This document shows positions 1-1,296 of a stretch of 35,221 bases of DNA, in pieces. The position numbers were made by a program, and so were the translations under genes. The first letter of the stretch is position 1, and each line of letters begins with the position of its first letter. The DNA is from Paracoccus sp. IB05 (lineage in GTDB: Bacteria > Pseudomonadota > Alphaproteobacteria > Rhodobacterales > Rhodobacteraceae): positions 1 to 35,221 of the forward strand of contig NZ_JAEFCF010000051.1 of NCBI RefSeq assembly GCF_016405985.1, in the 5' to 3' direction. The notes under the pieces are model-generated. The model was not told where the DNA came from and did not search any database. It saw nothing but the letters and a program-made list of their open reading frames with translations.

Positions 1-1296
1 CTGTCAGGGGAAAGGGGAACTCCGGACATAACCGGATTTGCTCAACAAAGCCCCCATCAGCTGTCAAAGTATCTGATCGAGATGATCCATCGGCTTGAGG
101 CTGCTGGTCTCGTGCGGGTATCAGCTTATAGCTACGCGGGACCGGGCGTGAAGACAAATCGGAACTCGCGAGTCCAGGCAAGCCATTGGATGCAGGAGAA
201 ATTCCGGGGGCTGAAGATCGAGCCGGGAGCCATCTGGGAGGTTCCGAGAGAGCCGATCATCCTTAAGTCAGCATCCAGGGAAGATGAGGCAGAAGGGCCG
301 ATCGAGAAAGCCGGTAAGCCGATAGACTATGACGATACCGATGAAACCCGTCGGATGCGGGGGCAGTTGTAGGCTTATAATGAGCTGCTGGGACGGACCT
401 TCATCGACATTCCGATACTGGACCGGCCTTGGGTCACGCGCAACGATAAGACCGGCAAGGAAATCCGGGTCGCAATCGGCCCGCGTAATCAATTCGTCAG
501 GCGGATCTTCAGCAGGGGATCATGGTCGATGAATGAGCGGTTCTATGGCCCTTGGTGGCAGGGCATAAACAGCAAGCTTCGGTCCCAGATCTTCATCAAC
601 GATACCCCAACGGTCGAGATAGACTTCAGGTCCTTGCATATTCAGATCCTTGCAGCACGCGAGGGGATGGAGGTGATCACTGATCCTTACGTCTTGCCAC
701 CGGGGCAGTTTCCGGGGTTCGATGAGGCTGAGCAGAGGAAGCTGGTGAAGCTGCTGGTGCTGACTGCCCTGAATGCCAGAAACCTCAGAACCGCTTGCTC
801 TGCCTTCAGGAATGGTCTGGAGAATGGGCATTCCGGCAAACATCTGAAAGACTCCCAGCTGAAGAAGGCATTGCTGGTGCTGAAGCGGCAGGTGCCTTGG
901 CTGCATAAATACCTCTGCAACGATGAGGGTATCGGCCTGATGTTCGACGACTCGCAGATCGTCGAGCGGGTCATCAAGCGCTGCACTGACGCCGGGCTTC
1001 CGGTGCTGACGGTGCATGACAGTGTGATCGTACCCTATACGCATAGCAGGTTGCTCAAAGCCATAATGGTTCAGGCAGCAGAGGAGGTGGTTGGTCGACC
1101 TTTGCCTTTGGAGGCTGAGCATGCTGGTCTGGATGATATGCGGGATAAGCCTTTGGAGATTCAACAGGATTTCGAGTGGTGGAGGGAAACGGCTCGCTGC
1201 GAGGGATATTTGCAGAGGCTAAAGGCTTGGGAAGAGTCTCATGGGCAGGTGGTTGTTTCTCTGGGGATGAAGCAGCGTAAGGCAAGGGCAGGCTAA
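1..1296 (+). pseudogene. Polymerase-palm-like protein of a mobile-element type, interrupted by an in-frame amber stop
   Basis: One reading frame is open from the first base of the window to a TAA at 1294-1296, except for a single TAG at 370-372. The gene starts left of the window. The part before the stop has a winged-helix-like stretch (LIEMIHRLEAAGLVRV, from about position 73). After the stop the frame resumes at once with AYNELLGRTFIDIP, which shows that both halves belonged to one protein. The second half contains VEIDFRSLHIQILAAREG (Asp codon 622-624), which resembles motif A of family A DNA polymerases and T7-like RNA polymerases. A basic helix RKLVKLLVLTALNA near 736-777 could be motif B, and LTVHDSVIVP (His-Asp codons 1015-1020) resembles motif C. 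Assignment rests on these motifs only; the biochemical role is unknown. The downstream half could be translated from ATG 529, which lacks a convincing Shine-Dalgarno sequence. Base composition is less GC-rich than the rest of the window, which fits acquired DNA. Confidence 0.6.

Follow-up and report, generated by a model that had tools for sequence, protein, structure and literature searches.

Two sets of described polymerases bear on the locus analyzed here. In the part of their study that concerns it, Yutin et al. (2024, PMC11348598) describe divPolA2 from barbaviruses and other phages as a protein with an active palm, no homologous thumb and an N-terminal globular domain, and propose that it serves the phage as a repair polymerase or as an RNA polymerase. 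The TV-Pols were described from mobile elements by Iyer et al. (2008, PMC2579912), with Paracoccus denitrificans included in the legend of their Figure 2; primase plus polymerase activity was proposed, a conserved hairpin Arg was described as contacting the template, and TV-Pols were stated never to be linked to nuclease domains. With its partner MP, CcPol, which Iyer et al. count as a TV-Pol, synthesizes new strands in vitro in the absence of a primer, according to the sections of PMC10061031 that deal with the pair, and the corresponding passage of Bebel (2020, PMC7581432) calls it the sole characterized TV-Pol to the knowledge of those eLife authors.

The locus considered here lies at the beginning of the window, that is, the whole stretch of 35,221 nucleotides that was analyzed, which is an entire contig of Paracoccus sp. 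IB05 (NZ_JAEFCF010000051.1); the upstream part of the polymerase gene lies beyond the contig start.

An Interrupted Polymerase Gene

Positions 373–1293 of the forward strand (stop codon 1294–1296) encode the part of a divPolA2/TV-Pol-like polymerase that comprises palm and fingers, in a frame that matches phrog_4756 of the PHROGs collection with an E-value of 8e-35 (function there: unknown) and is 65% identical to an intact Paracoccus protein. The first-pass annotation had taken this frame for a compact, stand-alone protein of about 300 residues with its start at 373, and in this it was mistaken. Codon 373 is no start codon and directly follows an in-frame TAG stop (370–372, forward strand, from reading the frame) that interrupts the gene, while positions 1–369, open on the same strand, in frame with 373–1293 and cut by the contig start, encode the preceding part of the same protein (a winged-helix-like segment and a linker). 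The stretch 43–411, which spans that one TAG, is 54% identical (E 7e-26) to residues 105–218 of an intact relative (L002:7386–8906). The segment 373–1293 is the C-terminal part of a protein of about 510 residues, the length of the close intact copies (about 500–535); more distant intact relatives have about 430 to 570 residues.

A genuine two-gene arrangement, with the N-terminal part and the polymerase part split, was also considered, the idea being prompted by a P. denitrificans copy broken at the same place and by three Paracoccus plasmid copies that match the N-terminal part only. It was rejected; the three plasmid copies share one truncation (more than 99% identity downstream) and the frames are disrupted.

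Judged from its sequence, the window copy is most likely a pseudogene, because it carries one in-frame stop as well as a Glu in place of the Gly that precedes the hairpin Arg in all other aligned rows with letters there. A sequencing error at 370–372 is conceivable, but the window copy probably no longer yields an enzyme. Comparison of the window with four relatives (L002, L001, L084 and L004) gave dN/dS values of 0.15–0.19, with dS saturated, and therefore the frame evolved as a protein.

Downstream, ARAGORN places a tRNA-Gln(TTG) gene at 2791–2865 on the reverse strand. Between the polymerase remnant and this tRNA lies a 309-residue open frame on the reverse strand (1937–2866) with a signal-peptide-like stretch, whose start overlaps the tRNA gene.

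Family Identity and Conservation of Catalytic Residues

The polymerase family is not new: phrog_4756 and divPolA2 (Yutin et al., 2024) are one and the same. AUR84708, the published representative, matches phrog_4756 with an E-value of 2e-91 and scores 120 bits with the family profile built here, while the intact relative matches phrog_4756 at 2e-46 and AUR84708 itself by BLASTP with an E-value of 6e-7 (24% identity). Seventeen of the 18 alignment members match phrog_4756, two of the 18 being pieces of the window. The window protein was assigned to no family by Pfam or NCBIfam, and Pfam hits to Pol I or a 3'-5' exonuclease were lacking both in it and in the 18 alignment members, in agreement with the earlier reading that an exonuclease domain is missing. 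The closest named relatives, at 64–65% identity, are found in two Paracoccus genomes, as an intact protein of 507 residues in P. kondratievae (the L002 copy) and as a copy with a broken frame in P. denitrificans DSM 413.

To describe conservation we reduced 91 matched rows to 49 distinct ones that are at least 75% complete over the core (42 were dropped); these 49 include the window row and some interrupted copies, and they are not independent because some are close kin. The motif A Asp (codon 622–624, in VEIDFRSLHIQ at 613–645; all positions in this paragraph are on the forward strand) is present in all 49 rows, with a Glu two residues earlier in 45. The hairpin Arg of the GRFYG motif (538–540) is kept in 48 rows with one gap, the fingers Asp (682–684) in 47, and the fingers motif RKLVKLLVLTALN (736–774), with its RxxxK at 736–750, has the Arg and the Lys in 48 rows each and an Asn at Lys+8 in 39. 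The motif C His-Asp (1015–1020) shows His in 45 rows and Asp in 48. Family A palm motifs in this order and frame had been proposed from the outset, and the phrog_4756 match, the relatives at 64–65% identity, the low dN/dS and the conservation across the 49 rows set them well clear of a chance resemblance.

Two alignment positions, which we take to be the sites of deoxyribose/ribose selection in Pol I and T7 RNA polymerase, are mostly His (34/49) and Asn (39/49) and match neither enzyme; sequence alone therefore does not tell a DNA product from an RNA product. In AUR84708 (L081:25469–26758) the His of motif C is replaced by Phe, and the Glu of motif A is missing. Proteins from genomes of about 1.4 Mb (L070–L073) match only about the first half of the profile, and the L073 row is without several of the catalytic motifs.

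Predicted Structure

The structural model of the intact relative was built on only eight rows and has a mean pLDDT of 68, with values of 75–94 (in blocks of ten) over residues 271–450. A Foldseek comparison with the PDB returned 84 matches at E≤1e-3, the best 50 of which belong either to DNA polymerases of family A or to the mitochondrial RNA polymerase of yeast, a few of the listed matches being put to a family by what we take to be their identity and the rest by title; the best match reaches 2.5e-6 with a TM of about 0.3. Against BFVD the eleven top proteins lie between 8e-23 and 6e-18, and the three of them that are named come from Aeromonas phages 2L372X and 4L372D, whose proteins were also matched in the phage tblastn search described below, and from Rheinheimera phage Barba31A (a DNA polymerase); the replication protein of the Zamilon virophage was matched at 1.3e-5. 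With best matches to family A polymerases and with the catalytic residues conserved, 373–1293 of the window encodes a palm and fingers of the family A type, and neither a fold lacking the palm nor a lack of conservation at the motif A Asp or the motif C His-Asp was seen. The thumb of TV-Pols is a two-helix coiled coil; the model has one long helix (195–212) before the palm, followed by low-confidence stretches, and the hairpin with the conserved Arg falls in a low-confidence part.

Modeled alone, the N-terminal part (mean pLDDT 68) shows the order helix-strand-helix-helix-hairpin. None of its PDB matches reaches E≤1e-3; those at the top of the list are mostly LmrR/PadR-type winged-helix regulators (best E 0.036), and a profile search returned MarR regulators at E of about 0.2. 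The winged-helix-like N terminus of the first-pass annotation thus draws weak support from two sources, fold and profile, and we consider it likely but not established because the LmrR/PadR fold matches are below threshold and the MarR profile matches stand at E of about 0.2.

Distribution

At E≤0.001, with fragments included and the window's own genome counted each time, the polymerase family is matched in 14 of 100 relatives; among genomes of the class the figure is 30 of 385, and within the taxonomic family 42 of 295. Among phages, tblastn found it in 222 of 50,697 records, always below 60% identity and never over as much as 80% of the query. Early viral scans with single proteins had given nothing or one near-copy, while a pattern gave three loci and closer alignment four; a later pattern search gave six matches, three of them the earlier loci and L076 a short fragment, with the pattern matches L077 and L078 covered by the profile sweep only. 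A quick tree of 62 rows groups the window with three Paracoccus copies (SH-aLRT 100).

Association with Integrases and tRNA Genes

Copies related to that of the window adjoin a tRNA-Gln(TTG) gene in L001, L002, L023–L026, L083 (truncated), L084 and L130–L132. In the P. kondratievae locus (L002), a 21-bp direct repeat of the tRNA end delimits an element of about 6.4 kb in which an integrase, a small conserved open frame and the polymerase follow one another. By analogy with these related elements at the same tRNA, the window remnant would belong to a mobile element at tRNA-Gln, as proposed at first, and it is on the analogy that this part of the proposal stands; in the window itself no repeat of its tRNA end was found. 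A search of the window's own genome for the integrase and the small upstream gene likewise found neither, and an empty answer of such a search proves little.

The association was then measured on further Alphaproteobacteria copies. Of 36 polymerase copies, 28 have a tyrosine integrase within 8 kb, vs. 0 of 40 control regions, where the integrase profile was built from the integrases of the first loci, the 36 copies are those on contigs of at least 60 kb (two genomes gave two each, and five regions are cut by contig ends), and the controls stand at chosen round-number positions rather than random draws, some of them in genomes of the first set rather than the test set. For the same copies and controls, the figures within 8 kb are 24/36 vs. 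4/40 for a tRNA gene and 10/36 vs. 1/40 for a resolvase. When neighbors were clustered over 54 loci, integrases occurred at 37 and resolvases at 15, the next largest cluster reaching 6. Direct repeats (at least 18 bp) of the tRNA 3' end accompany 12 of the 35 tRNA genes at the polymerase loci and inverted ones five of the 35, the control figure of one direct repeat among five tRNA genes being too small for comparison. A search of the 66 polymerase-bearing genomes, which would miss links across contig breaks, found a D5_N domain at most 5 kb from the polymerase in only one (G511) and no SSB gene (PF00436) near the polymerase, the nearest on the same contig being about 28 kb away.

Several further observations concern the architecture of these elements. 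The five inverted copies of the neighboring tRNA 3' end (L024:9284–9325, L029:13025–13065, L115:6634–6677, L118:11733–11777 and L131:10356–10397) are 41–45 bp long, 91–100% identical and 1.3–3.5 kb from the tRNA, and in L024 and L131 the inverted copy and the tRNA together bracket the polymerase gene. Att sites for excision are expected as direct repeats, which leaves these inverted copies unexplained. A conserved protein of about 95 residues, with no Pfam or PHROG match, is encoded between integrase and polymerase at L002:7002–7286 and occurs also in L001, L023 (two copies), L037 (in part), L082 and L084. Tandem partial copies of the integrase-small frame(-polymerase) unit near tRNA-Gln (L023:4627–7860 and L084:169–7479) suggest repeated insertion and decay at one site. 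In L113:5591–12304 a polymerase gene with one TGA interruption and an integrase lie between two tRNA-Gly genes, with an exact 54-bp direct repeat and an element size of about 6.6 kb, and in similar elements in L085, L134 and L043 the polymerase is followed directly by type III restriction-modification genes.

RNase HI Genes beside the Polymerase

In three elements of different genera, which are few cases, the polymerase has an RNase HI gene next to it on the same strand, 39–230 bp away (L116:8816–9334, L124:8781–9275 and L127:8616–9095); the L116 protein was identified with Pfam, and the genome search places all three. That search, based on Pfam and covering 66 genomes, gave 70 matches with at least one in 65 genomes, and the five extra copies are these three genes and two in G043. 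Around the latter two, no polymerase lies within the 9.0 and 5.2 kb surveyed, and one of them has an integrase nearby. If we take the RNase HI active site to be D-E-D-D, L116 and L127 keep all four residues, while L124 has Asn at two of them and seems to be without two catalytic Asp. Our literature search for the combination of RNase HI with this polymerase found no account of it. The RNase H neighbors hint that RNA primers are involved.

Proposed Role and Alternatives

The reading we favor, with a probability of roughly 0.6, is that the window holds what is left of a mobile element at tRNA-Gln, with a broken divPolA2/TV-Pol-like polymerase gene in it, and that the intact enzyme primes and/or extends DNA synthesis on the excised element. 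From the computed homology, palm and fingers, catalytic conservation, interruption and link to integrases and tRNA genes, we infer how such an enzyme might act, including its activity and substrate, priming, DNA binding by the N terminus and replication of a circle. Intact elements would be excised by their own tyrosine integrase, in some cases with a resolvase; the winged-helix-like N terminus may contact the element DNA, and the polymerase would prime and/or extend synthesis on the excised circle. Copying of the circle could then keep the element from being lost before reinsertion.

A repair or gap-filling polymerase, which mends element or phage DNA or fills DNA around the insertion and does not start replication, appears unlikely to us. 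Repair is one of the roles proposed for divPolA2 in phages, and in barbaviruses the protein occurs together with a regular PolB according to the relevant part of Yutin et al. (2024, PMC11348598); integrases and resolvases are the only common partners of the polymerase here. Tyrosine recombinases need no gap filling, however, and the DNA-binding-like N terminus and the RNase H neighbors would suit initiation better.

Somewhat less likely again is a single-subunit RNA polymerase, an enzyme that would transcribe genes of the element or phage or supply RNA primers. The matches that point this way are RNA_pol (PF00940) in 4 of the 18 members, below significance (best 0.012), the phage families phrog_414 (2/18, best 4e-4) and phrog_2051 (2/18, best 0.039), mitochondrial RNA polymerase in the Foldseek comparison and weakly in a PDB profile search (E of about 1.2), and an HDSF at motif C which we take to be like that of T7 RNA polymerase. 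Unrelated families appear at similar E-values in the same scans, though (Skp1_POZ at 0.0064 and phrog_2088 at 2e-4), the position of the presumed ribose-discriminating Tyr of T7 RNA polymerase is mostly Asn here, the best structural matches are DNA polymerases, and T7 RNA polymerase was not reported by the family profile.

The RNase HI genes open a further and quite improbable reading, in which a module of resolvase, polymerase, RNase H and integrase, present in some elements, would replicate by way of an RNA:DNA hybrid. In its boldest form the polymerase would copy element RNA and RNase H would remove the RNA, a retroelement-like cycle without a reverse transcriptase, whereas in a milder form the polymerase would extend or make RNA primers which RNase H removes. 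We give a slightly smaller chance to a defense or counter-defense enzyme among the element cargo: the neighbors do include type III restriction-modification genes, a pPIWI-associated nuclease, a KAP NTPase and an AbiE annotation, but such neighbors vary among elements while integrase and resolvase recur. The terminal, template-independent nucleotidyltransferase raised in the first-pass annotation, for which the small size and the lack of a recognized thumb would speak, is the least probable of all because the hairpin Arg (template-contacting, Iyer et al.), the motif A and C Asp and the RxxxK are conserved as in templated polymerases.

These results connect a polymerase known from phages (divPolA2) with bacterial mobile elements of the TV-Pol kind and, by comparison with controls, associate its gene in Alphaproteobacteria with tyrosine integrases and tRNA genes. 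Small named elements with an intact polymerase frame, such as that of about 6.4 kb in Paracoccus kondratievae, allow the idea of priming or copying to be examined, and the RNase H neighbors are a new clue to mechanism.

Comparison with Known Systems

Compared with T7-like RNA polymerases, the family shares palm and fingers motifs and weak matches, but the window protein has no significant Pfam RNA_pol match. With the PolA-SSB primases (CcPol-MP), as presented in the relevant sections of Rice (2023, PMC10061031), it has in common a family A polymerase core carried by a mobile element; CcPol is described there with an SSB-like partner, whereas near the polymerases studied here a search for the PF00436 type found no such gene.

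The resemblance to TV-Pols goes further and includes the hairpin Arg, the two metal-binding catalytic Asp in an RRM-like palm, the fingers Asp and RxxxK, the lack of a nuclease domain in the protein, and mobile elements with a lambda-type integrase or a gamma-delta resolvase. It differs in that no D5 helicase link is found here, D5 being a feature of one TV-Pol subset only, and in the RNase H neighbors, as opposed to the absence of nuclease linkage stated for TV-Pols (PMC2579912). The bacterial copies fit the TV-Pol subset in which an N-terminal domain goes together with an integrase or resolvase, a likeness by hallmarks rather than by a clear match to a named member. MAP_030 of Microcystis phage LMM01 scores a marginal 4 bits against the family profile; we presume it to be the TV-Pol of that phage from its place beside a transposase.

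To divPolA2, as set out in the portion of the published account that covers it, the bacterial copies are joined by membership of the same sequence family, by a palm with motifs A, B and C, by an N-terminal globular domain (in models of moderate confidence), and by having no exonuclease and no recognized thumb. The published phage copies are described in variable neighborhoods, in contrast to the copies found here, which belong to bacterial elements beside tRNA genes with integrases.
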